From Candidatus Margulisiibacteriota bacterium (GTDB lineage Bacteria; Margulisbacteria; Termititenacia; Termititenacales; Termititenacaceae), in assembly GCA_031267055.1 (NCBI GenBank), contig JAIRZV010000016.1, forward strand, positions 1-37,434: DNA of 37,434 nucleotides, given 5' to 3'. The translations under genes were made by a program, and so were the position numbers. The notes under the pieces are model-generated. The model ran no database searches. It was given only the letters and a program-made list of their open reading frames with translations, and was not told the DNA's origin. Positions 3,086 through 28,517 of this stretch are shown in pieces (within the stretch, counting starts at the first letter, position 1; each line of letters opens with the position of its first letter).

Positions 3086-6000
3086 ATGTATCAGTATTTG
3101 CTTAAAGTGATCTCCGATAGAGTAGGTCCGCCGGACAGAAGGGAGATTGCTAACTCAAATGTTCCAAATGCTAATAATGCCGAGACTGGATTAGTAGATG
3201 CATATGGGAGAGAACTGGATGCTCGTTCTCCGGCCACTGTGCGCTTGCGTTTGGCAGACGGGACTATTGTTGACGCTGCGGTTTTAGATTATGTGTATGC
3301 CGGACAACAAGTAAAACTTCTTACCGATGGAGCAGGTCGGCCTTTGTTTATTGCCAAGCCTACCGGTTATGACGTGCACGGAAATATTGAATACGAATTT
3401 ATGGAAGTTGTGCGTGATGCCGCCGGAGCTATTCACGGACAACGTATAAAAAGAATACTACTCTTAAATGCCGACGGATCTATTTATCGAACCATAAAAG
3501 AAGAAAAAATAATCCTTAACGACTCTGATTTATCAAGAGTGGTTGTAATTGGCACAAATACTGCGGCGCGGCAAGCTTCGGAAAATGAGCGAAACGGGTT
3601 TGCCGAGGATGGTACCGAGTTTAATGTTAGCGAGCTAAGTAAAGAAATCGGCACCACTTTTAATCTGCGAGTGTACAAAGATGGAGCCGCCGGGGAAGCT
3701 CCTAGTGTTTACACGCGGATAATAAAATTTGGAAACAGTTCGGTGGAAAATCTGGCTGTTTTTGATAAAAATGGGCTTCTTTACGTGGTTATGCCGGGTA
3801 AGGCCGCGGAAACATGGGAACTTCATAGTGCTAGATTTAAGGATGAAGTTCAGAACATGGTAATTATCGGGGCAGAAGTAACCGGCAGCTCACAGGTGAG
3901 TTTTGCCGGGGCGGTTGTGGGGGCTGAAGCGGCACAGATTATGCCGAAAAATAATGCTGCGGCTGCTACTATTAGCGACAATCATATTGAGCCTTCGGGT
4001 TTGACAACAACTCTCACGCAGGCCGGAGAATATTTTCGAGATAATTATAAAGGTCATTTGGCGATAACCCAAAGTCGTAACCCGGCTCATGCTTTTAGAA
4101 AAGAAATAGGCAAAGAAGGCGGCGATTATGATATTGATATATATCCTATTGTTGAAAGGTTATACGAAAAATCGGCTACAAACAAAGAGCTATTGACAGT
4201 AATAGAGGCGATGAACAAGAGCGAAAAGAAGAAGCTGTTGCACTGGCTAGAAAAGAGAGCCAAGGAACTGGAAAAGAAGGTCGAAGAGACTGAACTGTTG
4301 GGTGGTATTAAAAGATATCCGCTGCGCGCTACAGCAGATATTTTAATGCAGCTATTCTTGCGTACGCTGGCGCCGGAGGCTGGCGTTGGTTCGGAGGCTT
4401 TACTGGGCGCGATTAATCAGATGGTTTACAGTTATTTCGGCGGTTCGATGAATTACTTTTTCAAAAGCATGATGGACTACAGCAAAGAAACTCATTATGC
4501 AGATAAGAGCGGCGGCAGTTCATTTGTGCTTGCTATGCATGGTAATCCAGAATTGGGCAGGTTTTTAGGGACAATACCTAAAGAATACACTAGAGAATAT
4601 GTGAACACGGAAGATGCAGCTGGCCGGTATGGCGATACCGGTATTGTCTTGAAAAAACAAGGAGATGGGAGTATTGATTTCCGTTTTAGTTACGCGACAT
4701 CTTTGCAGGACGCCAGAGAGTTTGGGGTTTACATTAACGGCTTGATTGCCCGCGCCGAGCGTGAGCTGGCTGATCTCAAGACCCGAAATTCTGAATATTC
4801 GGCCAAAGAGCAAGAAATCTTTGCGCGCCGCGAGGCTGAGCTGGAAAAATTGAAAGAGTCTTACGGCAAAGATGCTCATGGCCGAGATATAGGTTATTTG
4901 GCACGGGCCGAGAAACTGCTGGATAATTTTGATAAAGAGCTGGAGGCTTTAACGGCCGAATACAAAGACATAGTTGCAGCGCAGGAGCTGCTTGGCAGTT
5001 TGTATTCTATTCGCTATGCCGCGGACAGGCGTTTTTCTTTGTCCGACGCCGGACGCCGTGACCGAGGCTGGGCCGGAATCTGGTATTTTCAACTGGATAA
5101 AAAGAAACCTTTGACTCTGCCAAAGGAAATACAGGATCATAAGGGTGTATATATTCATGAAAAAAATAATATATTACAAGTCAATTATTTTCTGACTAGA
5201 GCTGAGCTGGATGAGTATTTAGTACCGGCTTTGAAAAATGCTGGTTATAGCAATGATTTTATTGAAAAAGTCCGGATTGGTTTCAAAATTGTTGAGTCTG
5301 CCTATTATGCCGAGATTGCCAATAGAGGGCCTTTCACCGAATTGCCGGCGGATCAGCGGCAAAGACAGGTGACGGAAGTCGCCGCTTTCACCAGCGTGAT
5401 CTATGATCTGCCGATCGAGCATCTGTATATCTCATTTATGCAGGAAGAGTATTCACTGCACAAAGTGACGCTTGCTATTCAGGCCAACAGCCCCGAGGAA
5501 ACGCATAGCGCTAACGCTTATGGCAATGCCGCTCATGCCCGCGAGAGAGAGACCAGAGCTAACGCGGTGAACGATACTATAATGACCAGATACAGCAAGG
5601 GACGTTTGGTGCATTTGCTGGAAGAATTGATGTCCGAGATTAGCAAAAAACATATTGAGATCGGCAGCAATCTGGACAATATACTGGAGTCGATCGTCTA
5701 TATGTTTGACGCCAGTAAAACACAATCCCAAGCCGAGCGTCTGCTGGCGGTCAAGGAAATTGTGTTAAATTTTCTGTCCGGCAATTTGGACACCAAAGAA
5801 AAACGCATCGCCACTTTGCAGGCCGCGATCCAGATGGATGATTTTGTTTCTGCCGACGCGCAGAGAAATGAACTGCTCAGTCATAATTACCGTTTATTGG
5901 GGCTTATATTGGCCGATCAGCATGGCCGCCGTATCCCGTGGAATATGATACTTGATGAAGTGCTGCAGGACCCAAGAATTTTTCCGGCGGACGACCGCGA

Positions 6001-9000
6001 GCGCAGCATAATGACAGTTGGTTTTCAGAAGTTAAATATGTTCCAAAACGAAAATGCCGGTAAACGGGGTGCGGTTCCTTACAAGCATCGAGGAATAGTT
6101 ATTAACGATCTTAACGGATACGATCCCGAAACGGAATTTCCTTTAAGGCAGGCCTTGCGCGAGGTCTTGGCGGAAGAACTGAAAAAAGGCCTGATCCTAG
6201 AGGCGCAGATAGACAATACTGTAAATCTCTTGATCACCGCTACGGAGTGGCAGGAAAAATCCGTTCCGCGTATCGCAGAGATCATGAGCGGTTTTTGGAC
6301 GAACGGCCAATTATCCATAGCCGAACAGGACGAATTGCGCGGGCTGTTGCTCCAGTATTTTGCCGTGGATGCCGATGAGATGCAGCGGATCATCAATGAC
6401 TTGATCGCCAATAAAGAAGCGATTAGAAATCGTGAACAACTTTATCTCGATACAGACATCGGCTCAAATCATATCAATCAGATCAATGCTGAAAACTTGG
6501 GACTTAAAGCCTATCTGGGCGTGTACGGTTACGCGCGTGGCTACAATATTTACACCAAGGGTTCCTCTCGTCCCAATATCAGCGAGGCGCTGGCTGCCAA
6601 ACCAAAAGGAGAGAAATTTAGCGAAAAGGAGATTAAAGAATTATTTGGCGCGGCTTTTATGGATTACATGTCCGGCCGTACCGGATCGGACGGCGGCATA
6701 AATGAAGTAACGCGCTGGATCGAGTCAGAACATCTGCTTCTGGGTTTTTCCGACTTGCGCCGCCAGAATGGTATGCAAAAAGCTAGAGAGAGTCGGATAA
6801 TAGATCCGACTTTTGGCAAGCTTAGGCGCAGGCTTGGTTTGAGCGACATAGATAATCAACTCTATTTTCCTGAAAGTCATGGCGAGTTGTATCAGGAATT
6901 AACGCATGTGAAAGAGACGCAAAAAATTCATAACAACGGCACAATGGCCTCCTTGAGCAAAGATAGCCTTGATCATATTGTTAGGAATTATGACACGATA
7001 GGCTATGAGATCATGTCAGCTGTGGCTGAATATGAAGACACAGCTTCGATCGATGCGACTATCGAGAAACTTAAAGCTGCTGGTTTCAATGTTGTTGATT
7101 TAAAGAATATTGAGCCAGAAACTGATAAGGATAAACAGGAATGTATCTATGATCTTGATAAGAGAACAATTACCGTAACGCCAAATGTGGAAGAGCTACG
7201 CAAAACTATAATCAGAGAATTGGACGGGGACAGCCACAAGATCGTGAGTTACAAAAACGGCATGTTTACAATTGAATTTGATGAGGGCACTGAGGGTATG
7301 GCACTATGGTTAGCGGATAGTCTAGAAGCGAAAGGATACACCGCCCGTGCTAACACTAGATGGGTTACAGTCGAGTCCAATATCAATTTGATAACCGACA
7401 TTTTGGGCGCGGAAGGGGAAAAGGTGAAGTACAACAGAGAATTAACTTTTGTCACCAATTCGCGGGATTTTATAAAGTTGATTCTGGATGAAAAACTAAG
7501 TCAGGACGAAGCGAAAGTGCTGGTAACGATTTTTAATAGTCACGCGGAATATGTTTCGGATTTTAAAGGCGAAGAAGAAAGGAAAATGAATTATTTGTCC
7601 GAGGCTTTGAGACGAAAGGTTGTGGAAGTTCTGAAGGACCCGCACGTTGGTCTTTACGCCAGTCTTGATGATATGGAAAAGTGGATCAATGACAAAAGCA
7701 AGGAAAACCTCTGGTTTGCTGGTCAGACGCACCGCGAGCAAGTCAGAGCTTTTTGGCGAGATAGACGCGCCAAACTGAAAATTAAATTGAATGAAGCTAT
7801 CAAAGAATTTGCTGGGGATCATAAGGCGGATATAGAGGGTTTTACAAGTATAAATGCCGATACTTTAACCGACCGCTATATGGAGGTTATCGAGGACGCG
7901 CAAAATCTGCTGCAGGCCACGGCTGACGGCATGCTGCTGGAGATCAACCGCGCGGTCGATAACTACAAAGTGATCGTCGGCCAAAATATACTGGCGCCTG
8001 TATCCGCCGCGGCTGGCCAAAATTTGACTGTCCAGCAAATCCTGCTGAATATGCAGATCGACGGCGCTAACAGCTCGCGGGCTGAATTAGACGCTGTATC
8101 TTCCGGGATAGATTGGATGGGAACCAATGATAAGAAAATCGTGGATGCGCTGAAATTTTTGCTCAGCGTGCCAAAGAATGTAAATAAGCCAAATCAAAGT
8201 GGAGCAGTAGATCCTAAAAACATTCAACTCTCTTTTGCGCAGTTGGCCAACGGCCGCAAGCTGGATAAAGAAAATCCTGTCGGCTATCTGGCCGGAGCTT
8301 TGAAACTGGCCGCGGCGCATCAGCCCGGACAAAAATATGTTCGTTCCAAACACTGGAATATTTTTGTTTCTGACCTATTGAGTTCGATCAGCGTCAACGG
8401 CGGCAGAGAAGCTAAAAATTATACCGGCGCAGAAGCAACGATCAAGACAGTGGCAGAATTGGCCGAACATGACGAAGTTAAAAAGATTTTAGAACTGCTG
8501 AAAGGTCTTTCGGAAAACGAGATACAAAGTTTGATCGATCAAACTGTCGCTTGGCTGGAAGCTGAAGCGCGCTACAAGGCCAGTTTGGAGCCTATTCTGG
8601 AAGGCAAAGGCATGTCCCGTGACACGGCTACAGTGCTGACGGATATGTTGTTTGCGCAGGATACTGAAGATGGTTATCGAGGAGAGCTGTCAGTTAAAGC
8701 CAATGCTATAGAGTTTGTGGACACCTACCATAAGGATAGTTATCCCAAAGGGGCGCATACCACAGGAGAATATGAAATGCCGGACGGCACAAAAGGAAAT
8801 GGGCTCATACTGAACAATGGTATTTTAAGAGATTATATTAAAGCGAGAATTGACGCTCAGTCCGCGCCTAAACGCGCTGAGCTGGATTCTTGGAAGCGCG
8901 AACAGGAATCCATGTTTAACATTATCCGCATTTCGCCCAAATATGACAGCACTTTTAAGCCGGAAACTTTCAACGGGTCTTACATTGGCCTGACGCCGTT

Positions 9001-11635
9001 CGAGACTATGCAAAAAATTATCAAAGGTATGTTCTTGCATTACTATCAATGGAACGGACAGTACACCATTCAGCAAGTCTGGGCAAATTTCAAAGACGAA
9101 ATGCAGCGTGACACTATCTCCAACGCTATGCCGACTATTCTTTACCGCGGTGTTGAATATCCTTTCTGGGATTTGCTGGATAAAGTTTTTGCGGAAATCG
9201 ATAAGAAAAAACTGCTGTCGCTGCATAGCTTTAAAGCGAACGGAAAAGAAAACTATGACTATGCTTTGGACGCTATGCGCCAGCGTTATAAAAAAGTCGA
9301 TGAAATTTTTGATGATGTTATGTTGAAAGTCATTTCGAATTTTAAAAGTTATGTTGAGGTTACTCAGCCTTATCTGGATGAACTAGCTATTGATCCTGAG
9401 ATGCAGGCGCTAAATAGAGAAAATCAGAAAGAGCTGGATATGCTTTCCACTTTACTGCCTACTTTACTGTTCGTGGCAAATGCCGGCCTGACTATGGACG
9501 AGATCGAGGACGCGCTGGTTTCAGAAAATGCGGATAAAGATAATTTGTTCAATAAATATAATTCTCTTCCGGTATTGTCCGCGTACCGGCCGGATGAGCA
9601 AGGCAATATCGTCAACTGGACGACAGTTTTATTACAGGCGCAGCAGGCTATGTATTATTCAATGTGGAATAAAAATCAGCGCGGCGGCTGGTATGATATG
9701 CTCGATTTCAATAGAACCAAATCTTATGTTGATGAAATGATGGGCTTTTTGCAAAATCAAGGCTGTTTCAATAAAAACCTACGTGTTCACGCGACTTATC
9801 TGCATTTGCTGCGTGGCGTGATCAATGTCGCCGTGCCGGTAGATAATTCTATTATGGACAACGGTCTGCCGAACACTGTTGGCAATAATCCCAATCCGCC
9901 GAGCTATGTACCAAGGATGTCCACAGAGCTGGGCGTTCCGGCCGCTGCCGCTGCCCTGTCCTCGGTGGTTATGCCGCTATTGGGGCCTGTTCTGTCGCCG
10001 CTGCTGCTCAATATTTTGACTTCAGTGTTGTATCTGAATGTTGTGCCCGGGGTACAGAGAAAAATGCAGGAAACTTACCGGCGTGTGTCTGTTTTGAAAG
10101 AGGAGAAAGAGGATGATAACTTTCTGCTTCGGCTGGAAAAATTGCATCAAGTTTTGGACTTGAGTAAGACCTACAGCGCGGTGGAGGATTACCGGATCAC
10201 GCTGGAGATGATGAAGTCTTTTTTGTGGGGACGGCAGATCAGGAGTTTTATCGGCTCGGCCAAAGCGGAAAGCGATCATGACGTCACCGCTCTGGTGCAA
10301 TTCCCACGCTGGTTTGGCGCGATCTTGGAACTGTCGCCAGCGGAGCTGATGGACGCCAAGTTTATGGAGAGATTTGCCAAAGAGCATCATATGCCGAAAT
10401 GGATTATGCGAGAAATAGTTAAATTCCGCGAGGAAGCGAGCTTCCATGACCTGCACCCGATGTCTATGTATTACAATCTGCGTTTTAGCATGGTGATGTC
10501 CATGTACGCGCTGTTCGGTTTTTCGCCGTTCTCTTTTGCCGGGCCGTTGAGCGCTGTGGCTGGCTCCGCGCTGCTGATCGGAGCGGTGGGTATATTTGCC
10601 TTGTTTGATTATATGTTTATTAAAAACCAAATCGCGGCGCATCACTGGACAGCCGCTGGCATCAATAGAGCCAATGAGAGGGTGGCGGAAGACCGGTCCA
10701 ATACGATCAACGGTATTTTAATACCCAAGATCGAGAGCACGCTGGTCAGCGTATATAAAATGAAGTTCATTTCTTCCCAGCCGGTGTATATACCTGAGAA
10801 ACGTTATGCGGATGGTCTGTATTTTGGCAAGGCGGATGCGCTCAAAATGCAAATAGCGGCTAAACTGCAATACCGCCAGAAATTAGCAGATTTGGCAACA
10901 ATGAAAGAACAGGCCGAAAAAAATATAACGGCGCTGGTCAACCAAATCGCCGGGCCTGAGCTGGCTAGATATGAAAAGGAGCTGCGTCAAGATAAACACT
11001 GGCAGAATAAGAGCGAAGCGGAAATAACACAAGAAGCCAAGCAGCGCGCTTATAAAGATATTCTGAATCTGGCACGCGGAGATGCCGGAATTCAAATATC
11101 TCTTAGATCTGGTCTTGAGTTAAACAAAAAACAAAAAGAAGGAATGTTAAGAAAAATAAACACCTTGTCGCAAGCCGCTGACTCGACTGAGGAGCAAAAA
11201 ATGGCTCTGCTGGATAATTTGATCGATATAGCTAAGCTAGATGATGTGATTGTGCGGACAGAAGCCACTATCGCCAGCAGCCGTGGTGGTATTGGTAACC
11301 CGCTGGGAGCATTAAGAGCCAGACGCCCCGGCGTAAGACTTAACAACTGGCACAATATGGTCCGCAAATATATGCCGGCGGTTTCTATGAGCGCTCTCAG
11401 CGCTTCCGCTTTGCTAACAATTGCCAGCAATCCTATGTCTGCGATTCTCTTAGTGCCTGTGCTGGTGTTTGGCTGGTTTAGCACGAGGAATCTTTTTCTC
11501 CGTCCGAAAAATTATGTGGAAAGAGGCATCGGTGGAGCAGTGCCCAGCCTGCGCGAAGCTCAATTATACGCGGAAAGATATTTTGATGGGCAAGGAACGC
11601 ATAATACAGCAAATGGAGGTGGCGATCATGAATAA
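3086..11635 (+). CDS. Giant uncharacterised protein (2849 aa); mostly soluble and helical, with three C-terminal hydrophobic hairpins; no recognisable N-terminal signal peptide
   Basis: Single uninterrupted ORF. SD-like gggagtaagg before the ATG. Coiled-coil-like segment (ARAERELADLKTRNSEYSAKEQEIFARREAELEKLKE). Hydrophobic stretches AAAAALSSVVMPLLGPVLSPLLLNILTSVLYLNVV, FSMVMSMYALFGFSPFSFAGPLSAVAGSALLIGAVGIFALFDYMF and MSALSASALLTIASNPMSAILLVPVLVFGWF. Confidence 0.9.
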   Translation: MYQYLLKVISDRVGPPDRREIANSNVPNANNAETGLVDAYGRELDARSPATVRLRLADGTIVDAAVLDYVYAGQQVKLLTDGAGRPLFIAKPTGYDVHGNIEYEFMEVVRDAAGAIHGQRIKRILLLNADGSIYRTIKEEKIILNDSDLSRVVVIGTNTAARQASENERNGFAEDGTEFNVSELSKEIGTTFNLRVYKDGAAGEAPSVYTRIIKFGNSSVENLAVFDKNGLLYVVMPGKAAETWELHSARFKDEVQNMVIIGAEVTGSSQVSFAGAVVGAEAAQIMPKNNAAAATISDNHIEPSGLTTTLTQAGEYFRDNYKGHLAITQSRNPAHAFRKEIGKEGGDYDIDIYPIVERLYEKSATNKELLTVIEAMNKSEKKKLLHWLEKRAKELEKKVEETELLGGIKRYPLRATADILMQLFLRTLAPEAGVGSEALLGAINQMVYSYFGGSMNYFFKSMMDYSKETHYADKSGGSSFVLAMHGNPELGRFLGTIPKEYTREYVNTEDAAGRYGDTGIVLKKQGDGSIDFRFSYATSLQDAREFGVYINGLIARAERELADLKTRNSEYSAKEQEIFARREAELEKLKESYGKDAHGRDIGYLARAEKLLDNFDKELEALTAEYKDIVAAQELLGSLYSIRYAADRRFSLSDAGRRDRGWAGIWYFQLDKKKPLTLPKEIQDHKGVYIHEKNNILQVNYFLTRAELDEYLVPALKNAGYSNDFIEKVRIGFKIVESAYYAEIANRGPFTELPADQRQRQVTEVAAFTSVIYDLPIEHLYISFMQEEYSLHKVTLAIQANSPEETHSANAYGNAAHARERETRANAVNDTIMTRYSKGRLVHLLEELMSEISKKHIEIGSNLDNILESIVYMFDASKTQSQAERLLAVKEIVLNFLSGNLDTKEKRIATLQAAIQMDDFVSADAQRNELLSHNYRLLGLILADQHGRRIPWNMILDEVLQDPRIFPADDRERSIMTVGFQKLNMFQNENAGKRGAVPYKHRGIVINDLNGYDPETEFPLRQALREVLAEELKKGLILEAQIDNTVNLLITATEWQEKSVPRIAEIMSGFWTNGQLSIAEQDELRGLLLQYFAVDADEMQRIINDLIANKEAIRNREQLYLDTDIGSNHINQINAENLGLKAYLGVYGYARGYNIYTKGSSRPNISEALAAKPKGEKFSEKEIKELFGAAFMDYMSGRTGSDGGINEVTRWIESEHLLLGFSDLRRQNGMQKARESRIIDPTFGKLRRRLGLSDIDNQLYFPESHGELYQELTHVKETQKIHNNGTMASLSKDSLDHIVRNYDTIGYEIMSAVAEYEDTASIDATIEKLKAAGFNVVDLKNIEPETDKDKQECIYDLDKRTITVTPNVEELRKTIIRELDGDSHKIVSYKNGMFTIEFDEGTEGMALWLADSLEAKGYTARANTRWVTVESNINLITDILGAEGEKVKYNRELTFVTNSRDFIKLILDEKLSQDEAKVLVTIFNSHAEYVSDFKGEEERKMNYLSEALRRKVVEVLKDPHVGLYASLDDMEKWINDKSKENLWFAGQTHREQVRAFWRDRRAKLKIKLNEAIKEFAGDHKADIEGFTSINADTLTDRYMEVIEDAQNLLQATADGMLLEINRAVDNYKVIVGQNILAPVSAAAGQNLTVQQILLNMQIDGANSSRAELDAVSSGIDWMGTNDKKIVDALKFLLSVPKNVNKPNQSGAVDPKNIQLSFAQLANGRKLDKENPVGYLAGALKLAAAHQPGQKYVRSKHWNIFVSDLLSSISVNGGREAKNYTGAEATIKTVAELAEHDEVKKILELLKGLSENEIQSLIDQTVAWLEAEARYKASLEPILEGKGMSRDTATVLTDMLFAQDTEDGYRGELSVKANAIEFVDTYHKDSYPKGAHTTGEYEMPDGTKGNGLILNNGILRDYIKARIDAQSAPKRAELDSWKREQESMFNIIRISPKYDSTFKPETFNGSYIGLTPFETMQKIIKGMFLHYYQWNGQYTIQQVWANFKDEMQRDTISNAMPTILYRGVEYPFWDLLDKVFAEIDKKKLLSLHSFKANGKENYDYALDAMRQRYKKVDEIFDDVMLKVISNFKSYVEVTQPYLDELAIDPEMQALNRENQKELDMLSTLLPTLLFVANAGLTMDEIEDALVSENADKDNLFNKYNSLPVLSAYRPDEQGNIVNWTTVLLQAQQAMYYSMWNKNQRGGWYDMLDFNRTKSYVDEMMGFLQNQGCFNKNLRVHATYLHLLRGVINVAVPVDNSIMDNGLPNTVGNNPNPPSYVPRMSTELGVPAAAAALSSVVMPLLGPVLSPLLLNILTSVLYLNVVPGVQRKMQETYRRVSVLKEEKEDDNFLLRLEKLHQVLDLSKTYSAVEDYRITLEMMKSFLWGRQIRSFIGSAKAESDHDVTALVQFPRWFGAILELSPAELMDAKFMERFAKEHHMPKWIMREIVKFREEASFHDLHPMSMYYNLRFSMVMSMYALFGFSPFSFAGPLSAVAGSALLIGAVGIFALFDYMFIKNQIAAHHWTAAGINRANERVAEDRSNTINGILIPKIESTLVSVYKMKFISSQPVYIPEKRYADGLYFGKADALKMQIAAKLQYRQKLADLATMKEQAEKNITALVNQIAGPELARYEKELRQDKHWQNKSEAEITQEAKQRAYKDILNLARGDAGIQISLRSGLELNKKQKEGMLRKINTLSQAADSTEEQKMALLDNLIDIAKLDDVIVRTEATIASSRGGIGNPLGALRARRPGVRLNNWHNMVRKYMPAVSMSALSASALLTIASNPMSAILLVPVLVFGWFSTRNLFLRPKNYVERGIGGAVPSLREAQLYAERYFDGQGTHNTANGGGDHE

Positions 11636-14600
11636 ATGGCTGACTAAAATACTTTCGGATGAAGAGTTATTAAGAAGAGTCAGAATGGGCGGCGGATCGA
11701 AACCGCCGAGAAAACCCTGGCCGCCTCTGGCTAAAGCAGGGATTGCCGTTGCTGGACTTGGCGCAGTTGGTGTTGCTGGCTATCAATGCGAAGCAGCCAA
11801 AGAATCCAGAAGAAGCGAAGTAGAGCCTGCTGAGGCAACGGAAGCCTTAGAACAGGAAACGGCCGAAAGCGAAACGACATCTATCCATGACGAAGGAATG
11901 AAAATTTTAAACGAGGCTTTGGAAAAAACTGACTTGAAAAACGAGGAAAATCTGAACATCAAAATTCAGACCACGCTTGATAATGTTATGCGGGGTGATA
12001 ACGGCAACAAATTAAAAGTGACGCTTGGCGACGCGATATTTATTCAAGATCCCAGCCAGCCACAAAATGGCATTGTTTCGGAAAGTGTTTATTTCCTGCG
12101 CATCGCCGCGGCTAAGCCTAGCGAGGAAACCCAGAAGTTTTTTGACGGGCTGCTGCGTGGCTTTGATCAAATGACTGCGCTGGGTGGCGGCCACGGCGTG
12201 TTCCCGGCTTGGACGGTAAAGATCGAGAACGACCGTTTGGTTTTGAATACAGACAAAGACGCTGGCGCGCATAATTCTGCCGCTGACTCCGATCATGATC
12301 TGATCATGGCTTTGCTGGTAGCCGTGCAAAATGTAAAAAACAATGATTGGGAGGATAGTGATTACGCCGAGCGGCTGGAAAAACTGATCGATGGTCTGGC
12401 TAAAGAATATATTGAGGTGGCTGGCCGCTGGGCGCTGAAGCCTTCAGAAGATTGGTACGGCGATGAGCAGGGCGAATGGTTTTATCTGGACTACTTTTCC
12501 CCAGAAACCTGTTTTGCGCTGGCGCAATATTTAGCTGCCAAAAATGATCCGCGCGCGGCGTTTTGGCAAAAGTGCGGAGAGGACAGTCTGGAAATATATG
12601 CCGCTTGTCTGGAGCAGATCGGCTGGGTGCCTGAGCAGGTTTCCCTTGGCATTGATGAGGATGGCAATCTGCTGGTCGAAGCGCGGCAAGGCCATGGTTT
12701 GCAGGGTTGGGACGGCATTCGCGCGCCAAGCCGTATTGCTGCCGGTCTGCCTTATTATATTAAGGCCAATAAATTGACCGAAGAACAAAAAGCGATTTTT
12801 ACAGAATATCTAAATAAATGGAATGATCCTGCCGGCAAAGCTTCCGGCATGGCTCCGGCTTTGACTGCGGCGGCTTATCTGCCTCTGGCTGTGCAGCTGG
12901 GCGCTGTTGATTTGGCCGCCGAGATGCTGTCCGTGCTGGCCAAAGAAAATACCGCCGCGGTTTATGCCAGTCAAGATCAGTATTACGAAACCTCGTTGAT
13001 TTTAAAAGCGTTGGTTGATGTCAGCGCGCCTTATGATCTAGACAAGTATTCTCGGATGGGCGACTATACTCCGGCTTGGCGGTTAGAAGACATTTGCGAT
13101 CCACAGGCTGGTTATTATGGCCAAGTTGGTGTTTTGAGCGCTTTTGGCGCGCTGGGTTTTGTGATCAACCCCGATCCGCCCAGCCAGTTTAAGATTTATA
13201 AAGGCATTAACACCCATATTATTACCGCCGAGAGTATGCTTTCTGGTTTGGCTGACGCAATGGCCGCGGGTGATATGGCTAAATTTCAGGCCATCTTTAA
13301 TATGATCGATGCGCTGTGCGTAGAAAATTATAACAAGGGCAAAGCCAAAAGATTATTTTTGCCGAGAGTGGTGACCTTGAAGCCGCAGGATAGCGCGCGT
13401 AAATTGTCTTTAGACAATTTTACTATACCCGGAGGCAATGACGGCAAAGCTTCCAGCAGCGGCGCGGATTTAATGCTGCTGGCTTTATTGATCAAGGCTC
13501 TGGACATGGATTTTAATACAGGATTGATGAACGCTCCAAAGTTTTTGTACGATGCTCAGAACCGGATCAGGAATTTTATCGCCAGATACGCCAGCGAGAT
13601 GGTCAAGAGCAGTGGCGATGTTTATCCTTATACGGATGAGACTGGCGCAACGCGGCTGCTATTGACACCAGGTGGTTTGATTGGCAGTAATGAGTCACCA
13701 AGAGATCAGAGCATTATATACGAGTATCATACTGATTATGTACAAAATCTGGATATTTTGCGCTGCATCGTTCAATATTTTAGGCCGGGATTTGGCATTG
13801 GTAATAGTAAAGGTTCCTCAGAGTTGTATACAATTTTTACCGCACTGTTGTCCGATACGGAAGAATTGAAAAAAAGGATTGACGCGAAATTTTCTGACGC
13901 CGTTAAATATCCGCAAGGGATGCCGCAAACGGTGTACATCTACCTGCCCCACGCGTCTGGGCAGCCGGTGCGAGTGCTGGATGCCAATGAATTTAGCGCG
14001 GAGATGAATCCAAATAAGAAAGAGGAATATATTTCATTGAATTACCCGGGCTCCAATGGCTATGATTACGGTTACTATTATACGCAAATCATGCAAGCCG
14101 CCAGCTCCGGCAAACAACCAGCGATAGATTTTAAGCAAACGAAAGCGCAGGTCAATGTGAATGAGGACTATATCTATGGCAAGACCGGCATCGGCGTGGT
14201 GGCCAATCATGTTGCACGTCATCATGGCGTGGCCGGTATATCTCCGTTGCATGATCGGAGATTGCAAAATGATTCGGAAATCGGCCGCGGCCGCCTGCAG
14301 ACAGCGGATTCTAAAGCATATGATAGGACGCCTTACCCGTTTGCTGTGTCAATTCCTATACTTTTTTTCAATATTGATATTATTGGCGACTGGGAAAAAG
14401 TTTTCAGCGACCGGCTGCGCGCGGCGCTCAGGAGAATGAGCGAAGCGGATTATGCGGCGCAGGGCGAACAAATGTACACCAATACTTTGCTGGCTTATGC
14501 CGGATTGCCCACTGCGAAAATGGTCAAAAAGGGCATGACTACCGAGCGCGTTGCCATTACCGCTATACGGGTAGATGACTTTCTGGAATCAGTTCTGGGT

Positions 14601-16295
14601 TTTTCCGAAGAATTTGTCCGTAAAGGTCTTTATATTGAAATTTCTGCCGTTGATGTGGTTTCTTATTACTTGCTGCAGATTAGCGCGATGTTCGGTTATG
14701 ACAAGCCGGAATTGCTGCATCGTATCAATATGCTGCTGGCGGAGATCGAGAGACAGGCGCAGACTAAAGGAAAAGAAGTGGATTTAGACAATCCTATTGT
14801 CAAGGCGCTGAAGCTCCAGCAGCTTTTGCTGTGGAACAATATGTCGCCGCTGCAAAGAGACCGGCTTGATCTTGCCGATCTGGAGCATTACGGGTTAAGG
14901 CCTCTCTATAATTATTTTAAAGACCAACCCGCAACGCAAAACGATATCATTAAGCTGACAGAATTTTCTTGGGATGGCATTGAACTGGATGTGTCCGATG
15001 CAATAGTAGACCCTGTTACAGGAGAAAAAGAGTATACGTTGACGCCGGATAAACTCAAAAAGATGCGCATACCGCAGCAGTTGAAAGATGTGGTGTTTAG
15101 TGAAATAGCGCGGAGAGATATTTTAGAAAAGATTAAAAAGTATCCATTGCCTGTTCCGCTGGAAAGAGAGAAAGAGCGTGAAGAAAACCTTAGAGAAGAG
15201 CTTTTTGATTATATAGATAATTTGCCGAAAGAGTATAAGGTGCCCGGTTTGATCCCGATCCTTTTCTCGGAAGGCGAGCTTGATGAAAATGACGAACGCA
15301 AACCTGACCCGATCCCGCGCGCCATCAAGGAAGAATTTATCCGTACATATCTGGATGAAATCGACTACACTAAAGCCGGCGCTTCTGGAAAGTACAACAC
15401 TTTGTGGCAGGCGTATACTTTGCTTCTTTATAAAGAAGTCAGCAAGGAGATCAGCGATTGGGTAAAGAAAGTAAAAGCCGACGAGAGTGATCAGCCGAAT
15501 GCAAAGACGCTGCTGTTGATAAAACAAAAATTAGCAAATCTGACCGCTATGCTGAATATTATGCATCTGACCGGCCTGCCACTGGAGCAGCAGAGCACTG
15601 ACCCGCTGATCGAACAATTCGCTAAGGCCAGGGAAATTAATGATAAAGCGTTCGACGATTTTGTGGGCACATATGAGGAACAAGGAATCTTGGCGGATAT
15701 ATTCAACAATATCTACTGGCTAGGCAACGATCTAGAACAGCTCAAAGATGCTAAAGAAGACGGAAGCTTGTACAGACAGAGAGGGTTTGATTTATTGAAT
15801 GTCTATACAACAAATAATGCGGATTGGGAAAATAGTGATAAATTGAACGGCGTGTATATGCGTTTGCATCTGCAGGAAAGTGCTAGAAACAAGGAGCTTA
15901 CTCCAGAGCAAATTACAGAAAATTTAAATAAACTGCGGCAGCGGCAAAGAGCAGCCAATGCCTATGGCAATAAACGGGAATATGCTTACTTTTTGCAGAC
16001 GGAAGCGTTTGTATATTCACAAGTGGGTTATAACCCGCAGCCGGATGAAAGGAATGAAAATCCAGAAAACGGGTATAGTAGATATAGGGATATAGTAACT
16101 GACGAAATTCTTAAACAGTTCGATTATATATTGGCTGAGGTGAAAAATATGCAAATGGATGTAGAGTCTATAAATCCGCCACCGCTTTCTCCGGTTTCGG
16201 CAGATGATTCACAGGAAAATAACCCGACGGATACCCATGAAGATCGTACGGAAGAGACTAATATTGACGATGCAAGGAATATATTTGGTTTTTAA
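11628..16295 (+). CDS. Large anchored protein (~1555 aa) with two tandem GH8/BcsZ-like domains
   Basis: Start ATG 11628 preferred (ggaggtggcgatcATG), overlapping the upstream stop by 8 bp; the track start at 11469 lies inside the previous gene. N-terminal hydrophobic segment AKAGIAVAGLGAVGVAGYQC. GH8-like: IVSESVYFLRIAA, NSAADSDHDLIMALL, LQGWDGIRAPSRIA, QYYETSLILKAL. Confidence 0.85.
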   Translation: MNKWLTKILSDEELLRRVRMGGGSKPPRKPWPPLAKAGIAVAGLGAVGVAGYQCEAAKESRRSEVEPAEATEALEQETAESETTSIHDEGMKILNEALEKTDLKNEENLNIKIQTTLDNVMRGDNGNKLKVTLGDAIFIQDPSQPQNGIVSESVYFLRIAAAKPSEETQKFFDGLLRGFDQMTALGGGHGVFPAWTVKIENDRLVLNTDKDAGAHNSAADSDHDLIMALLVAVQNVKNNDWEDSDYAERLEKLIDGLAKEYIEVAGRWALKPSEDWYGDEQGEWFYLDYFSPETCFALAQYLAAKNDPRAAFWQKCGEDSLEIYAACLEQIGWVPEQVSLGIDEDGNLLVEARQGHGLQGWDGIRAPSRIAAGLPYYIKANKLTEEQKAIFTEYLNKWNDPAGKASGMAPALTAAAYLPLAVQLGAVDLAAEMLSVLAKENTAAVYASQDQYYETSLILKALVDVSAPYDLDKYSRMGDYTPAWRLEDICDPQAGYYGQVGVLSAFGALGFVINPDPPSQFKIYKGINTHIITAESMLSGLADAMAAGDMAKFQAIFNMIDALCVENYNKGKAKRLFLPRVVTLKPQDSARKLSLDNFTIPGGNDGKASSSGADLMLLALLIKALDMDFNTGLMNAPKFLYDAQNRIRNFIARYASEMVKSSGDVYPYTDETGATRLLLTPGGLIGSNESPRDQSIIYEYHTDYVQNLDILRCIVQYFRPGFGIGNSKGSSELYTIFTALLSDTEELKKRIDAKFSDAVKYPQGMPQTVYIYLPHASGQPVRVLDANEFSAEMNPNKKEEYISLNYPGSNGYDYGYYYTQIMQAASSGKQPAIDFKQTKAQVNVNEDYIYGKTGIGVVANHVARHHGVAGISPLHDRRLQNDSEIGRGRLQTADSKAYDRTPYPFAVSIPILFFNIDIIGDWEKVFSDRLRAALRRMSEADYAAQGEQMYTNTLLAYAGLPTAKMVKKGMTTERVAITAIRVDDFLESVLGFSEEFVRKGLYIEISAVDVVSYYLLQISAMFGYDKPELLHRINMLLAEIERQAQTKGKEVDLDNPIVKALKLQQLLLWNNMSPLQRDRLDLADLEHYGLRPLYNYFKDQPATQNDIIKLTEFSWDGIELDVSDAIVDPVTGEKEYTLTPDKLKKMRIPQQLKDVVFSEIARRDILEKIKKYPLPVPLEREKEREENLREELFDYIDNLPKEYKVPGLIPILFSEGELDENDERKPDPIPRAIKEEFIRTYLDEIDYTKAGASGKYNTLWQAYTLLLYKEVSKEISDWVKKVKADESDQPNAKTLLLIKQKLANLTAMLNIMHLTGLPLEQQSTDPLIEQFAKAREINDKAFDDFVGTYEEQGILADIFNNIYWLGNDLEQLKDAKEDGSLYRQRGFDLLNVYTTNNADWENSDKLNGVYMRLHLQESARNKELTPEQITENLNKLRQRQRAANAYGNKREYAYFLQTEAFVYSQVGYNPQPDERNENPENGYSRYRDIVTDEILKQFDYILAEVKNMQMDVESINPPPLSPVSADDSQENNPTDTHEDRTEETNIDDARNIFGF
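12027..13060 (+). other. GH8-like domain 1 (within CDS 11628-16295)
   Basis: Order of GH8 landmarks is preserved: SE (Glu codon 12081), AADSDHDL (12282-12302), W-D-G-I-R (Asp codon 12711), and terminal YYETSLILKAL. The C-terminal part resembles GH8 more clearly than the N-terminal part. Confidence 0.55.
13100..13880 (+). other. Degenerate second GH8-like domain (within CDS 11628-16295)
   Basis: IITAESMLSGLADAMAAGDMAKFQAIFNMIDAL aligns by eye with SESVYFLRIAAAKPSEETQKFFDGLLRGFDQM and with GH8 SEG..YGM...A..GD...F; KASSSGADLMLLALLIKAL aligns with NSAADSDHDLIMALLVAV. Confidence 0.4.
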
Positions 16296-16320: not shown

Positions 16321-19300
16321 ATGACAGATGTAGTGACCGGCGTTAATAACAATTTAAACTGGCCGGAAATAATAACCAATCGGCAAACTCCTCATATAGG
16401 TGGTTTAAATGAGGATGAGTGGAAAAATTTGTTGGGGTTTACTACTTATGTGCAAGAAGATCACTATGATCCTTATATTCAAAATATTTATGATGAAATA
16501 ACTTTTCTAGAGCAAAATTATTGGCAAGATGAAAAGTATCGCAGTAGATTAACCCAAGATTTGGCAGAAATAAATCAAATTATCTCTGAGGCTACTAAAC
16601 CAAAAACGTTTAATTATAGTCCCAGACAATGCCTGTCGTTTTGTTATGCGGCGATCAGTTTGAATATTGTTCTTGGTGACAAGACTGGCAATACGACTTA
16701 TTACAATAATGCGCGCGAATTACTGGCGCGTTTTGATGTAAGACATGGAAATTATGTATTTCGCGCTCGGAATGAGGAGGTAACGCTTGCTTCCCATACT
16801 TTTGATCAAAGTTTATGGTTTGTGTCGCTGGTCGGCCAGTTGATCGAGCGTGGTGTCATTACGCCAGATACAGAAAAGACAAATAATATAGTTGGTCTTC
16901 TTGGTAATACAATAAAAACTATCGGGAATAATTATATTAATGAAAAAAATGAAGAAAAGAAAGCCGAATTATATATAAGAGGAAGATATTTTACTGCGGC
17001 TAGCCTTTATTTAGATGCCAAGCTGGAAAGAACAGAAGCGACCAGAGCCGCAAAGTATAAGGAAATATATGACAATTTGAAGAAGGATGGTACTTCCTCT
17101 CCTTTGTTACTTGTTTTGAGATTAACTGTATTAAATAGTTTGCTTTCCACTTCTCTCGATGCTGATGTTGTGAGGGATTATGGTGTAGATATGGCAGAAC
17201 TGGAACGATTTTTTAATTGGACTTTACTGCCTTCCGCAAATGCTATTAAACAAGCCCCAAATACTCCACGTGAGCGTGCCATAAAAGAAACAGACAAATC
17301 GTATTTGCAGGCTAAATATAATAGTTATGTGCAATACTATATGTCCCGCGCCAATTACTTGCGCACCGCAGCGCAGCAAGCTATAAAACAAATTAAATCT
17401 GCTGCGAATATCAATACAGCTATCAATAACGCCGCCACCGCTGTAAAGAATTTCAATGATTTTCTCTATGTCAGGGTTACTAATGATTTAGCGGACAGAG
17501 AAAATTCTTATTTTAAGGATTTTCTGACCTCAGCCAAACAAGAAGTGGAATTTCTCGAGTTAGATATTGTTTTGACCAGAGCGGAGCGCGGCGATACCAG
17601 TGTTAATTTAAATAGCTTAATGGGTCGTATTAACAGCCTAACGGCCAGCACTCCTGGAAACAACGCCCGCCGTTATTATTTCCGGTCGCGTTTGTTCAGT
17701 TTGCAGATCAAGCGCGAACCGAATCCAGAAAGAAAAAATATAATTCGCCGCAACGCTCTTGCTTTTATTATCGGTGGCCAAACCAGCGATGGAAAACCTA
17801 TTGCAGATAATGTGCTGACGGCTGATTATAATTTGAATAATATTTATAGAACTAACAATGCCGCTGACAATAAAAACTTGCAGCTCAACGCCCTCTGCGA
17901 AGCGGCGGAATTGCTTATGGATTTAGATAGAAAGAGTGAAGCCAAAGACTACTATGCGATTTTGGAAAGGCCTGCGGTATCCAATTTGACAGCTTTATTG
18001 AGTGTTGACCCGAGAACTAATCGATATGCTTTTCAAAGCGCGGATTTGAATGCGACATCCGCCCGAGTGCTGTTTTTGGCTGCCAGCTTAAAAGACAACA
18101 AAACTCTGTCAGAGGCCATTGCTAACCGGTTGATAGATGTGTTTGGTCCGGCGGGAAGTCCTAAAGACGAAACTATATTCAATGGCGCGCTGGCTCTTAG
18201 GGAAGGCTTCCGTTTTGACTATGTTTTAGATAATTTGAAAGCGCTGAAAAAAGCAGGCCAATGGGCGGAAGGTTTGGCTAAGATAGATGAAGAAGCGGCT
18301 TTGTTTGCACAGAACGCGGATAACCAGCGCGAGCGCGCTTTCCAATTAGCGGAGTGTAATAATCTGGCTTACCTTTACGACAATGGCAGCAAGCCGGATT
18401 TGAGCAATTTGGCGCAATACACTAATCCGGCCAGCCGGCAGAGACTGCATTATTTAAGAATGGCACAGTTGGCCAGCGACAAGGCTACACCCAGTGGTAA
18501 AGACCTGTCCGGTATTTTGCGAGAGATTGGCGATTTGGTGCGCTGGGATAAAAACTCCCAGAAACTGACTTTCACTTTGTCGAGCGAGTATGATGTTAGA
18601 CTAGATACTGTAAATAAGGATACACAAAAATCGCCGAAAGAATATAACGACGAGTTTGAGTTTGCGGTAATCGCTGAATATTTTGAGACGCTGAATAGTA
18701 TTTTGAATAGTGAAGAAAAAACCGGCCTGCGTCCAGCTGATCCACAATCCGCCGCAGAATTAACCGCCGCGTTTAGAGATTATTTTGATAGGCAGAAAGC
18801 GCGGAATGTCAACAGTCCTTCAGAACAAGATTTGCGCTTTTTGTTCTTCGCCGCGTTGCTCCTTGACGGCGATCAGTCAAAACCGAAAGACATTTACGAG
18901 AAAATTATCCACTGTTATCCCTTGCCAGTGCCGCGGGGCTATGCAGTGTCTGTCAATGGAGTGTCGCAAACTTATTATTACAATTCCGACGCCAAGCGTG
19001 CTTACTGGGAAGCGCAGGCCGGTCTGGTTAATTATTATGCTAAACAAAAGAATTTTGCCGCGCAGAAAACGGCATTTGATAGGATCGAAACCGAATACAA
19101 AAACCGCATTAATCCGCAAAACGTTGCTGGTTATGCCGCCGATGCCGCCTATATCAAAAATCTTTATTTCAACGCGCTGTTGATGCAGTGCCTGTCCGAT
19201 CTGGAGCAAGAAAACCGGAATACAGCCGTTGAACATTTGGGAGCATGGAAAACCCTGCTGGCAGACCCCGGCATTGCCGGACAATTAACTCCGGCGAAAC

Positions 19301-22300
19301 GTGAGCAGCATAAATATACTTTGATCGAAATGTGGACCCGCGCGGCCATGCTGCTGGACACACAGGAAGATCAGCCGCAGGACGCGCTCGACGAACTGCG
19401 CAAAATTTACAACGACAAAGAGTACAATTTATCCAGCGCGCAAAACGCCGCCGCCCGGCTCTGCGCCGACATTATTCGCGGCAATATTGAGGGACTGATT
19501 GCCGCAGACAGGCAGAGAACTACCGGTCCGCGCCTGACCTTTACTCCTGACGATACTTTTAACCCTGACAATATTTCTAAAAATTATTTTACAAAGAACT
19601 TAACGGTTGGCGCTTATACAGACCTGCCGCTTCGTTACGAAAAACAGTTGTTTATTTCTTCACTGCTCAATCGAGCCAAGCTTGGCGATCAACAGGCGGT
19701 TGAGACTTTGCAGGCCTTGCTTGCGCCGGCGCGCGCCGAGCAGACAACTGCTGAAGTTGACAAGGATTTCTTCTCGCAGATCGAGCCGCGCCTGGAGCTG
19801 GATCAAGCCTGGAATTCTCTGAATGATAAATATCAGGGTTATCGGCCTGCGGGTATCAATGCCGAAAATATTGCCAAAAAATATCTTGCTTCTCCATATT
19901 CTGCTGGCACACACGATGAGGCGAAAGACCTGCTCCGTCTGGCCTGGTCGAAAGGCGCTAATCCACAATGGGCTGTCAACGGGACGACTATTACGATCGA
20001 CAATAGGCCAGTACCGATAAAAGGCTATGCAGACCTGGCCGGATTTACCAATAAGCAGGCTCGCTCTGCCGCGGAAAATCTCCTGACGCTTTACGGTTAT
20101 ACTACGGCGACACGCGATGAGAACAAACTGGCCGGATTGATTAAGAATATTCTAACCCCGGGGGTGGCCGACGAAGAATTGTGCTGCAAGGCCCAGTTGG
20201 CCGAAGCCGAACAATACCTGCGGCTCAGCGGCGATCCGGACGCTGTAAAAAATTTACCGGCAGTCCTGTCAGCCTTGGGCTTTCTGTCCGGCGCCAGGAC
20301 CGACCGATACATTCGTCCGGCTATCGAGAAAGCTTTGGAAACCACTTTGGATGTTCTGGGTGATATTTTTACTGAAAATGCCGAAAGCCGTACTTCGGAC
20401 GATTATTATACTTATTGCAATCAGCGTATCCGCTATGTGCTTTTGCAATATGAAAATGCCCCGCAAAACGCTTATGACGCGCTGGAAAAACTGAGCAAGC
20501 CGCTGAATGAAGGTGGGCTGGGCTTGTCCGGCGACAGCCTTACCGGAAAACTCCTGCTGGATACAATTACTGCCAATAGGAATACGTTGCTTCTAGAAAA
20601 CGCGGATAAAATAAATGGCGCCGCAGAAAAGCTGAATTTTGTGCCACAGCCACAGTCGGATCAGGATCAGAAAAAAATTCTTGATGAGTACCTGCATATT
20701 TATGACGAAGATTGCGCCACAAAATTCCAAAAACAATTGCTGATCGGTATCTTGCTGCTTTTGGCCGCTCAGACCCGGATAAGCGGGGCGGAGCCTGCGG
20801 AGTCCGGCGATGATGACGCGGCGGAGATGGCTGTGGAAATACTCCTGGGTCTGCGTCCGAATGATGATCCGCGTAAATTGACTTCCGCAGAACGCTTGGC
20901 GGAAACCGTAGAGTTTATGGGGCAGGAATATTTTGACCTGCTTGAACCGCGCCTGCGTCTGGATTATGCCTGGGCTTTGCTGAAGCCGAATAACCCATCA
21001 GCGGCGGCTTTGAATATTACGGAGCGGATCGCCAGAACAATTATTGAACAGGGTGAGAAAGTCACGGCCAAGATAATTTCTGAAGCGGAAGACCTGCTCC
21101 GTCTGGCCTGGGCTAAGTCTAAAGATAGTGCAGATGGCAAGCCTAAGCCGCAATGGGCTGTCGACGGCAAGAATATTGGCACGGATGACCAGCCGGTGTT
21201 CATAAAAGGTTATGCCGCACTGATCGCTGAACCAACGGATTTTACCGACAAACGAGTGAACGGCGCGTTTGAAAATCTGATCTCACTGTACGGCTACAAT
21301 CCTCTGACGCGCGATGCTGAATCAAATAAAGGCAAATTGGCCGAACTGGTTAAACAATTACAAGAAACTTATGATAGCGCCACGTTCTCTCCACAGCTCA
21401 AACCGGCCGTCAAAAAACTGTACATCAAAGCTCTGCTGGCGCAGGCGGAGACTTATTACCGAGATAAAAATATGATCGACATGGCTAGGGCGCTGGATCT
21501 TTTGTTAGCGAAACCGACTGAGTCTACCGGTGATTACAGCGGCCTGTTATCTGGAGAAATCGGTATTCCAGAAAAAACCGAGGAGTATTATGCCTACTGC
21601 GAGCAGCGCGTCCGTCTGGTTTTGCAACAAGCGCAAGACAACAATAAATCCAAATCGGCGGTGGAGACCGGCAATGATCTGGAAATTTTGCGCGGAGAAT
21701 TAAATCTGATCAGTCCGGAATGGCTCCCGACCAACTTGACCGAAAAATTATTGAATTCTTTTATTACGGTCAACAAGCCGAACATCACACCTCAAGAGAC
21801 CAAGGATGTTATGGCTAATCTGGGTTTTGACATCACAGCAAGCCGCGAGTATTTCGAGAAAACCTGCCGGACCGATTATCAACGCCGCTTATTCATCGGT
21901 ATCTTGTGCAAGCTGGCTGATTCGACCTCAGACGCGCCGAACACCCTTACCCCTGATCAACGCGCGAAGCTTCTTTCGGACGGCGATAACGACATTTATG
22001 AACAGATCGTGGAAGATTTGTTGCTGGACAGCCAAAACCAATACAGGCCCACGACTTTTGCGCAGGATCTTCTGAGTCCGGAATACGCGGCGACGATCCT
22101 GCCGCGTCTGCGTCTGGGCATGGCTTGGCGCGGACTGACCGGTAATGATAATGAATCAGCCGACCAAGTAATTTCCAAAGACTGGTTGGCTGTGGCTGAT
22201 GGAGTGGTCAGTGTTGTTGATGCTTTGTGCGCTGTAAATTTGACGCTGAGAAAAGAACTGCAGAACGAAGTCGATTCTTTGCGTTATTTCGTAATGATCA

Positions 22301-26636: not shown

Positions 26637-28517
26637 ATGTTTAACAAACTTATAAACGACGAGCAAAACTACTTGACCGGCTCCGGCGGCGGCAATCCGC
26701 TAAATTTGCTGAGGTTGGGGTTGGTCAGTCTATTTGGTTCGTTATTTTTATTCGGCTGTCTAAATCCTTTTACGGAAGAGGTGACTAAAGAGACGGAATT
26801 TATCAAGTCGGCGCCGGATCCTGTTCCGGATCATATCGATCAACTGATCCCTTACGGCGATCTTACGGCCAAACTCGCGGCAACCTCCGGCGATACGGTC
26901 GAAGTGACTGTGCGTAGCAGCAGAAAAGAAGACTGGAGCACACAGCAAAAAGAGCTGGCCGGCCTAAAAATTTTGCTGGACAAATACTATAAGAATTCGT
27001 CGAATGCTGAGGAAATTAAATTTACTTTTGAGGGATTGACCGGAGAAAACAAAAAATTTGATTTTAAGCGGTTGATCGTCACACTGCTGGACGCTAAAAC
27101 CAAAAATTACGACCATCTGGGCAATGAGAACCTTGCAGAATACGCTGAGTATATGCGTTCGGCGATTTTTGTGCCTTTGTACAGGATGAATCTGGATCCG
27201 TCGTACAATGAACCGTATGCTTGGGACAATCCGCGGACTTACGGCGTCAGCGTGGATCTGGATAAACAAGAAGTGACACTCGACCTGTCTCAGCGTGATG
27301 TGCTGATTCATAATTTGATGCACCGCGATCCGGATACCAAACTTACGAATATTACTATTTCCGAAATTGGGGATCGCTTCGTTAAATTTTCTGTGCGTGA
27401 CACTAGAGGTCTGCCGCCGGAACAAAAATGGTCGTATCTGGGGCTGGACCTCAAAAACCAATTCGGTATAGACGGTCAGATAATTCGAGCGGACGGCGGT
27501 GTGTCTTTTGCCTTGAAAAACACTCCAGCGGATGTTCAATACCGCGTTGTGCTGGAAAACAGCGCCAAAGAAAAGCTGATATTTTACCCGGAGGAGCATC
27601 CGGGAATTAAAGATAGCAGCTTGATCCCGCTAAGCTACTTCCATGAGGATTTTTTTGCGGCGGAGCTTGGCGCTAAGGCAAATTTTACCGAAGGCGCGTT
27701 GCAGGTGAATTTTGCCGGCAAGAATTCCCGGGTTACGGTTACGGATAAATCTGAGACAAAAACCGCGGTCGACCTGCGCCAAAATTATACTGGACAACAA
27801 AATGATTATTTGAAGCTGACTATCGCCGCTGGCACGGAATTTGACTGGCAGAAATTCCTGTTAAATGTGCGACCGACTTTAAGCTGTATCGACGCTTCCG
27901 GTGTGGAAAAATATTACTCGCTGGACAAACAGCTCTCTTATACCACAGACCAATTGGCCATATTTGCCGTTGAAGACACGGCGCGTGGCTGCTGGAATAT
28001 AAATATCCCGCTCTCCTGCGTCGATACTGGAAATGGTTTGCCGGCTGCCGCGCTTACTGTCACCGGCATCTCTCTGGCCGCTACCGACGAAAATTTTACT
28101 GAGGCGTATAATATTCTGGCGATCGAGTTGCGCGACGATGGCACGGCGCCGGGACATATTATTCCATTCCACGCGGTGGATAGAAATACGCCGTTCATCG
28201 CCGCCGGTATTTCTCTGTGCTCGGAGTCCGCGGCTATGCCGGATCTGGAGTTGCGGGATTTTGTTTTGCAGGCTTCCGCGGCTGAGGGAAAAATCGCGCT
28301 GGATTATTTGCGGCAGGAAAAATCTCTGGTCAGCAAAGGAGAGGCGGTGTCGCTGGTATTTTACACCGGAGATTTTGCCGATAAGGAAGAAAAAGATTTT
28401 CATTCAGACCCAGAGGGTCTGGAGACCGCTTACAGAGTTAAAGCCGATTGGCCTATAGTCGATACGTCTATTGCACAACAACTGCTAGACGAACAGACAG
28501 AACAGGAAGGAGAATAG
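26637..28517 (+). CDS. Predicted lipoprotein (~626 aa), paralogue of the next gene
   Basis: aagaggtgaggacaATG start; N-terminus MFNKLINDEQNYLTGSGGGNPLNLLRLGLVSLFGSLFLFGCLNPF with lipobox-like LFGC. Shares LDKYY, LTLLDA and VTVTDK landmarks with the next ORF. Confidence 0.8.
   Translation: MFNKLINDEQNYLTGSGGGNPLNLLRLGLVSLFGSLFLFGCLNPFTEEVTKETEFIKSAPDPVPDHIDQLIPYGDLTAKLAATSGDTVEVTVRSSRKEDWSTQQKELAGLKILLDKYYKNSSNAEEIKFTFEGLTGENKKFDFKRLIVTLLDAKTKNYDHLGNENLAEYAEYMRSAIFVPLYRMNLDPSYNEPYAWDNPRTYGVSVDLDKQEVTLDLSQRDVLIHNLMHRDPDTKLTNITISEIGDRFVKFSVRDTRGLPPEQKWSYLGLDLKNQFGIDGQIIRADGGVSFALKNTPADVQYRVVLENSAKEKLIFYPEEHPGIKDSSLIPLSYFHEDFFAAELGAKANFTEGALQVNFAGKNSRVTVTDKSETKTAVDLRQNYTGQQNDYLKLTIAAGTEFDWQKFLLNVRPTLSCIDASGVEKYYSLDKQLSYTTDQLAIFAVEDTARGCWNINIPLSCVDTGNGLPAAALTVTGISLAATDENFTEAYNILAIELRDDGTAPGHIIPFHAVDRNTPFIAAGISLCSESAAMPDLELRDFVLQASAAEGKIALDYLRQEKSLVSKGEAVSLVFYTGDFADKEEKDFHSDPEGLETAYRVKADWPIVDTSIAQQLLDEQTEQEGE

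Follow-up and report, generated by a model that had tools for sequence, protein, structure and literature searches.

The analysed window, a stretch of 37,434 nucleotides from the genome of an uncultured termite-gut symbiont of Candidatus Margulisiibacteriota, close to Ca. Termititenax (assembly GCA_031267055.1, contig JAIRZV010000016.1), carries on its forward strand a row of genes which includes P0001, a protein with two GH8-type domains:

3086 to 11635, forward strand: P0002, membrane protein of 2,849 aa, highly diverged candidate for a processive GT2-like synthase (judged from motifs and position)
11628 to 16295, forward strand: P0001, 1,555 aa, two GH8-type domains and a helical C-terminal part of about 594 aa (open reading frame with GGAGG)
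16321 to 26622, forward strand: P0003, 3,433 aa, TPR-like helical solenoid with C-terminal beta-strand periodicity (TPR matches in its equivalents, periodicity)
26637 to 28517, forward strand: P0004, predicted lipoprotein, conserved in the cassette
28520 to 30388, forward strand: P0005, predicted lipoprotein, distant relative of P0004
30449 to 37333, forward strand: P0006, secreted protein of 2,294 aa that carries CarboxypepD_reg repeats (Pfam-type repeats; relative in G001)

Upstream of the cassette lies a gene for LL-diaminopimelate aminotransferase (131-1315), found likewise upstream in Ca. Termititenax aidoneus (G001) and Ca. Termititenax persephonae (G003). Between this gene and the giant cassette, two genes (1548-2886) match DUF6088 and AbiEii, and are likely a type IV toxin-antitoxin pair.

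The open frame of P0001 spans positions 11469 to 16295, and its likeliest start is the ATG at 11628, which has GGAGG on its 5' side and overlaps the stop of the upstream gene. A preliminary description of this DNA had proposed tandem GH8/BcsZ-like domains in an anchored giant protein, the second domain being degenerate; all the motifs that it named were present in this single open frame. The following features were assigned to P0001:

11730 to 11789, forward strand: candidate lipoprotein or signal-anchor region, hydrophobic with a terminal Cys, AKAGIAVAGLGAVGVAGYQC
11952 to 13040, forward strand: domain 1, GH8 glucanase domain, BcsZ-like (PF01270, PDB profile matches, hhalign with BcsZ)
12081 to 12083, forward strand: Glu152, general acid, equivalent to BcsZ E55 (alignment; invariant among relatives)
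12285 to 12287, forward strand: Asp220, substrate-positioning Asp, equivalent to BcsZ D116 and CelA D152 (alignment)
12711 to 12713, forward strand: Asp362 in WDGIR, general base, at the position of BcsZ D243 and CelA D278 (alignment)
13125 to 14510, forward strand: domain 2, degenerate GH8-fold copy, acid retained and two Asp gone (hhalign, Foldseek)
13230 to 13232, forward strand: Glu535, domain 2 counterpart of BcsZ E55, retained (alignment)
13461 to 13463, forward strand: Gly612, replacing the first Asp of DAD (BcsZ D116), which is Asp in five relatives (alignment)
14511 to 16292, forward strand: C-terminal helical region, conserved among relatives and unrelated to the GH8 domains
Motif starts, forward strand: VSES 12075, SDHDL 12288, WDGIR 12708, YYETSLILKAL 12981, ITAESML 13221, SSSGADLML 13452

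In the comparison of the whole of P0001 with Pfam, GH8 was the sole family detected (PF01270, 26.9 bits; curated cut-off, 24 bits), and phmmer against PDB returned noise only. As a single query against the genome contigs, P0001 retrieved no close relatives; these were found with an alignment as the query, and comprised Ca. Margulisiibacteriota MAGs together with T. aidoneus and T. persephonae, both listed as congeneric with the window's genome. Full-length relatives were those of G001, G003 and G007. The description of the protein as anchored agrees with the hydrophobic segment and its final Cys, and with the canonical lipoboxes of three relatives (VSGC, MTGC and AVSC), whereas the corresponding GYQC of the window's P0001 is non-canonical; P0001 may thus be lipidated, to judge from these motifs. 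The "~800 further residues" reported after the GH8 pair were reduced to about 594, because domain 2 reaches about position 14510. A third GH8-like domain in this C-terminal part was considered and rejected (E 0.4-0.7 when aligned by hhalign with either GH8 domain).

The PF01270 search that had been suggested as a check gave 26.9 to 30.4 bits for domain 1, above the cut-off, the higher value being obtained with the isolated domain. The profile built from domain 1 together with nine relatives matched 12 PDB chains at E <= 1, all of them GH8 (12/12), including CelA, chitosanases, BcsZ and other glucanases. Alignment of the domain 1 profile with BcsZ (3qxq, 9b87; reference sequence from the E. coli K-12 genome) by hhalign ran end to end over 331 columns (E 2.9e-6), with E55, D116, D243 and R246 all conserved, the last being the Arg of YDAIR. 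The two codons previously singled out as active-site candidates, Glu at 12081 and Asp at 12711, aligned with E55 and D243, respectively. In GH8 a Glu is the proton donor and an Asp the acceptor, the latter defining subfamily GH8a (PMC5407803); at this position (CelA D278, BcsZ D243) domain 1 has Asp362. Hydrolysis by BcsZ is required for cellulose secretion, the E55A variant being dead and D243A nearly dead (PMC11379886). Since the catalytic residues of domain 1 match those of BcsZ and their published roles (PMC5407803, PMC11379886), domain 1 is very probably a working GH8 enzyme.

Domain 2 is also of GH8 type. Its profile, built from six sequences, aligned with the domain 1 profile from the SE motif through the position of the YDGIR block (hhalign E 5.1e-8, Prob 94.8), the E-values of six control comparisons of unrelated regions being 0.1-0.8. 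PF01270 matched one of the six domain 2 members (E 1.3e-7), and neither this model nor the rest of Pfam gave a match above cut-off to the window's domain 2 alone. The structural comparison with BcsZ that had been proposed was made for domain 2, with an AlphaFold2 model (five sequences, mean pLDDT 57) that was fair over the first ~300 residues and poor afterwards. When this model was searched against PDB with Foldseek, ranks 1 to 18 were all GH8, with BcsZ first (E 1.4e-4, prob 1.00), and GH126, a related (alpha/alpha)6 family, made its earliest appearance at rank 19; TM-scores were modest (0.3-0.4), as expected because the last third of the model is unreliable. The fold of domain 2 is therefore predicted to be closest to GH8. 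The second block had been described as repeating the pattern of the first one, which was correct as to the family, but its end is at about 14510 and not at 13880.

A joint alignment of 25 GH8 domains (6 domain 2 copies and 19 others) served to compare the catalytic positions. All 19 domains other than domain 2 kept the Glu, Asp116, Asp243 and the Arg. Among the domain 2 copies, the acid Glu was kept in the 5 that could be read at this position and Asp116 in 5 of 6, the exception being Gly612 of the window, while the general base position (Asp243) held Asn, Pro or Ser in 5 of 6, and D-x-x-R was retained in G021 alone. The view of the second block as degenerate and lacking a convincing YDAIR was thereby borne out, the acid being retained and the GH8a base missing. 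The six copies formed one group (support 100/100), in which the window's copy had the longest branch (1.72). Among 74 genomes from the phylum, 7 contained domain 2, counting a weak partial match in G050. Overall, the tandem arrangement observed in the preliminary description was confirmed, and its interpretation as an active domain next to a degenerate one was supported.

Domain 1 copies clustered with standalone GH8s from the same phylum (support 100/99). These include Termititenacaceae genes located beside GT2 synthases (G006:C51 and G007:C93), which, unlike P0001, encode single-domain proteins of 385-553 aa with no obvious signal sequence. In two regions, L050 (5997-9165) and L047 (7961-10285), standalone GH8 genes are convergent with GT2 synthase genes. 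GH8 domains were also detected within other ORFs of 2,000-2,600 aa (G008:C28, G015:C14, G021:C14 and G010:C57), so giant GH8 proteins recur in the phylum. The notion that G021 has GH8 only within its cassette was abandoned, as several others were found in that genome. One further GH8 gene (L088 8601-12789, G010:C48) is divided between two overlapping ORFs, by either a frameshift or a sequencing error.

The gene order P0002-P0001-P0003-P0004-P0005 is conserved in T. aidoneus and T. persephonae; in G007, P0001 and P0003 occur together and the P0002 relative lies on a separate contig. A relative of P0006 adjoins the T. aidoneus cassette with 67% identity, the other cassette proteins sharing 23-41%. 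The cassette core is also kept in G008, a cave MAG. There, a separate gene encodes domain 2 (1,223 aa), and the P0003-like giant that follows it begins with a fused GH8 of the domain 1 type, ahead of TPR-like and barrel-like sequence. In more distant families of Margulisbacteria (G014, G016 and G050), a synthase-like giant, a GH8 protein with helical repeats and a TPR/barrel-like giant stand in one row; these cassettes share the three-part arrangement with that of the window and differ from it in having a single GH8 domain with an intact triad. Their synthase-like proteins showed BLAST links solely among themselves. Partial second copies of the cassette were observed in T. persephonae (L072, G003:C71) and T. 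aidoneus (L040, G001:C97). In G008, an exact 3,969-base tandem duplication with a GH8 domain lies inside an ORF of >5,000 aa (L051 9883-18004), and is either a recent duplication or an assembly artefact. Among the openly accessible papers that were searched, none described the cassette.

Processive GT2 enzymes carry the motifs DxD, (T)ED, QxxRW and a gating FxVTxK in this order. P0002, whose location 5' of the GH8 gene is conserved, contains candidates for them:

9533 to 9541, forward strand: DKD, candidate DxD of P0002 (invariant in the family alignment)
10184 to 10312, forward strand: ED-x36-QFPRW, candidate TED and QxxRW of P0002 (pattern search, shuffle test)

In the alignment of the P0002 family DKD, GC, ED and QxxRW were invariant, followed later by F-x-[STI]-[ST]-x-P, so that the motifs are collinear in the GT2 order (DxD, GC, ED-x36-QxxRW, FxxSxP). 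The gap from ED to QxxRW measured 35-36 residues, and about 44 in G008; the order and rough spacing of the motifs were kept over nine proteins. When the 351 ORFs of the retrieved regions (175,000 aa) were scanned for ED-QxxRW, the pattern was confined to relatives of P0002 and true GT2 synthases; it arose in 0.35% of trials with shuffled P0002 (P 0.0035). The motifs were also compared with BcsA and local GT2 sequences: the G014-type proteins carry DADY, a WGSC-like motif, SED, RWxRGN and FxxSPK, and the spacer between the second and third motifs is 120-140 residues in these proteins and in P0002 vs. about 24 in BcsA. Searches of P0002 against Pfam and PDB gave no match, and for P0002 and its G014-type counterparts nothing significant was found in Pfam, PDB or GT2 profiles. 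The P0002 profile gave non-significant E-values with GT2 enzymes (0.43) and with the G014-type proteins (0.44), and the G014/G016/G050 profile reached at best E 0.0018 (Prob 15) with GT2. The BcsA model TIGR03030 reached its cut-off in no genome and did not match P0002, and the AlphaFold2 model of a 685-residue stretch of P0002 was unusable (pLDDT 38). A synthase role for P0002 is thus suggested by a motif argument, which is not a proof.

TPR models matched the P0003 equivalents of G016 (4.6e-12) and, weakly, of G021 and G001, and gave no match to P0003 of the window. Over the last ~300 residues of P0003 and two relatives, composition and periodicity shifted from helical to strand, and this C-terminus is a candidate outer-membrane channel with BcsC-like architecture. 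Models for BCSC_C (PF05420) and BcsB (PF03170) found no match in any of 14 genomes.

The order of a synthase-like protein, a GH8 and a TPR/outer-membrane-type protein, together with the GT2-type motifs of P0002, resembles the Bcs system (BcsA-BcsB-BcsZ-BcsC). The likeness to BcsZ extends to the full-length alignment of domain 1, to the best structural matches of domain 2 and to the neighbours of P0001, which are synthase-like on the upstream side and TPR/barrel-like on the downstream side. Nevertheless, BcsZ is one soluble periplasmic domain of 368 aa, whereas P0001 is a probably anchored protein of 1,555 aa with two GH8-type domains and a helical tail. In addition, P0002 and P0003 are about three times the size of E. 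coli BcsA (872 aa) and BcsC (1,157 aa), neither BcsB nor BCSC_C was found in these genomes, and P0002 is unmatched by the BcsA model.

Our preferred reading, to which we give a probability of about 60%, is that P0001 works as an envelope-anchored GH8 glucanase within a giant machine for exopolysaccharide that resembles Bcs. The cassette is most likely a diverged machine for synthesis, trimming and export of this kind, because P0002 carries GT2-synthase motifs in order, its own part in the proposal being motif-based. In such a machine, P0002 would synthesise a beta-glycan chain at the inner membrane; chains that stall or go astray in the periplasm would be trimmed by domain 1 of P0001, as cellulose is by BcsZ. 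Domain 2 would mostly bind and guide the chain instead of cutting it, a role proposed from its GH8 groove without the GH8a base. P0003 would lead the chain over its solenoid to a C-terminal outer-membrane channel, through which it would leave the cell, and the lipoproteins P0004 and P0005, with P0006, might serve surface assembly or adhesion. The proposal draws on the complete triad of domain 1, the GH8 fold of domain 2, the conserved gene order, the three-part cassettes of more distant families (G014, G016 and G050) with their one intact GH8, the fusion of GH8 to a giant in G008, the GT2 motifs, the TPR matches, the same-clade standalone GH8s adjoining GT2 synthases in G006 and G007, and the precedent of BcsZ (PMC11379886). 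Against it stand the lack of Pfam or PDB matches of P0002, its non-significant profile alignments with GT2 enzymes and the G014-type proteins, and its low pLDDT (38), the lack of any BcsB or BCSC_C match in these genomes, the lack of a TPR match in the window's P0003, and the completeness of the genome, which is 74%. The results establish that both domains are of GH8 type, which residues they carry and how the gene order is conserved; the synthase role of P0002 and the channel role of P0003, like every function and the polymer named in this reading, are inferred.

The named Termititenax relatives live in a wood-rich habitat, and an external polymer is the substrate of many GH8 cellulases. P0001 could accordingly be a degradative glucanase that helps the cell to feed in the termite gut, on wood or on glycans of the host; domain 2 would then be a carbohydrate-binding module and the giants adhesins unrelated to synthesis, a view to which the resemblance of P0006 to a surface repeat protein would lend itself. 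We consider this unlikely, given that P0001 appears anchored and not free, that P0002 has GT2-type motifs, that GH8 is joined to a TPR/barrel giant in G008, and that the order of synthase-like, GH8 and TPR/barrel proteins parallels bcsA-bcsZ-bcsC and is kept in lineages from outside termites, for example the cave MAG. The lack of a detectable family and of a significant GT2 profile match for P0002, and the large repeat proteins in its neighbourhood, would also suit an apparatus for protein secretion or surface assembly, whose GH8-fold domains act on peptidoglycan or another envelope glycan; the P0002 motifs would then be coincidental, which the specificity of the ED-QxxRW pattern and the stable order and rough spacing over nine proteins make improbable.

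As for domain 2, the label of pseudo-enzyme, read from its residues, agrees with the loss of the D116 and D243 equivalents in the window's copy. The position of the general base nonetheless differs within GH8, in subfamilies GH8b/c (PMC5407803), and the acid Glu of all 5 readable members and the D-x-x-R of G021 would be compatible with an active domain 2 whose base lies elsewhere, and with P0001 as two working glucanases. Yet the window's copy lacks the substrate-positioning Asp (Gly612) and is the most diverged member (end branch 1.72), and all single-GH8 cassettes keep the standard Asp, so that two working glucanases appear the least probable of these alternatives.

Taking the Bcs-like machine as the preferred reading, we tentatively suggest that Margulisbacteria carry a separate lineage of giant trans-envelope glycan machines in which the GH8 catalytic part has been replaced within an otherwise conserved machine. 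Taken jointly, and with the same reserve, its parts would be a processive glycosyltransferase of a new family that existing models do not recognise, a giant porin with TPRs and a partner of GH8 type; the original GH8 would have decayed to a glycan-binding domain in the Termititenax branch and G008, and an active GH8 of another clade would have been added, in one branch by fusion ahead of the decayed domain and in the other by fusion to the porin. If this is right, the known forms of bacterial polysaccharide export would come to include a branch, found in ectosymbionts that attach to hosts, which has neither BcsB nor a recognisable BcsA or BcsC. It would also be a clear example of decay in an enzyme domain that lies next to a fresh active copy, and the role of the decayed domain 2 would be testable, because sister lineages hold intact relatives for comparison.
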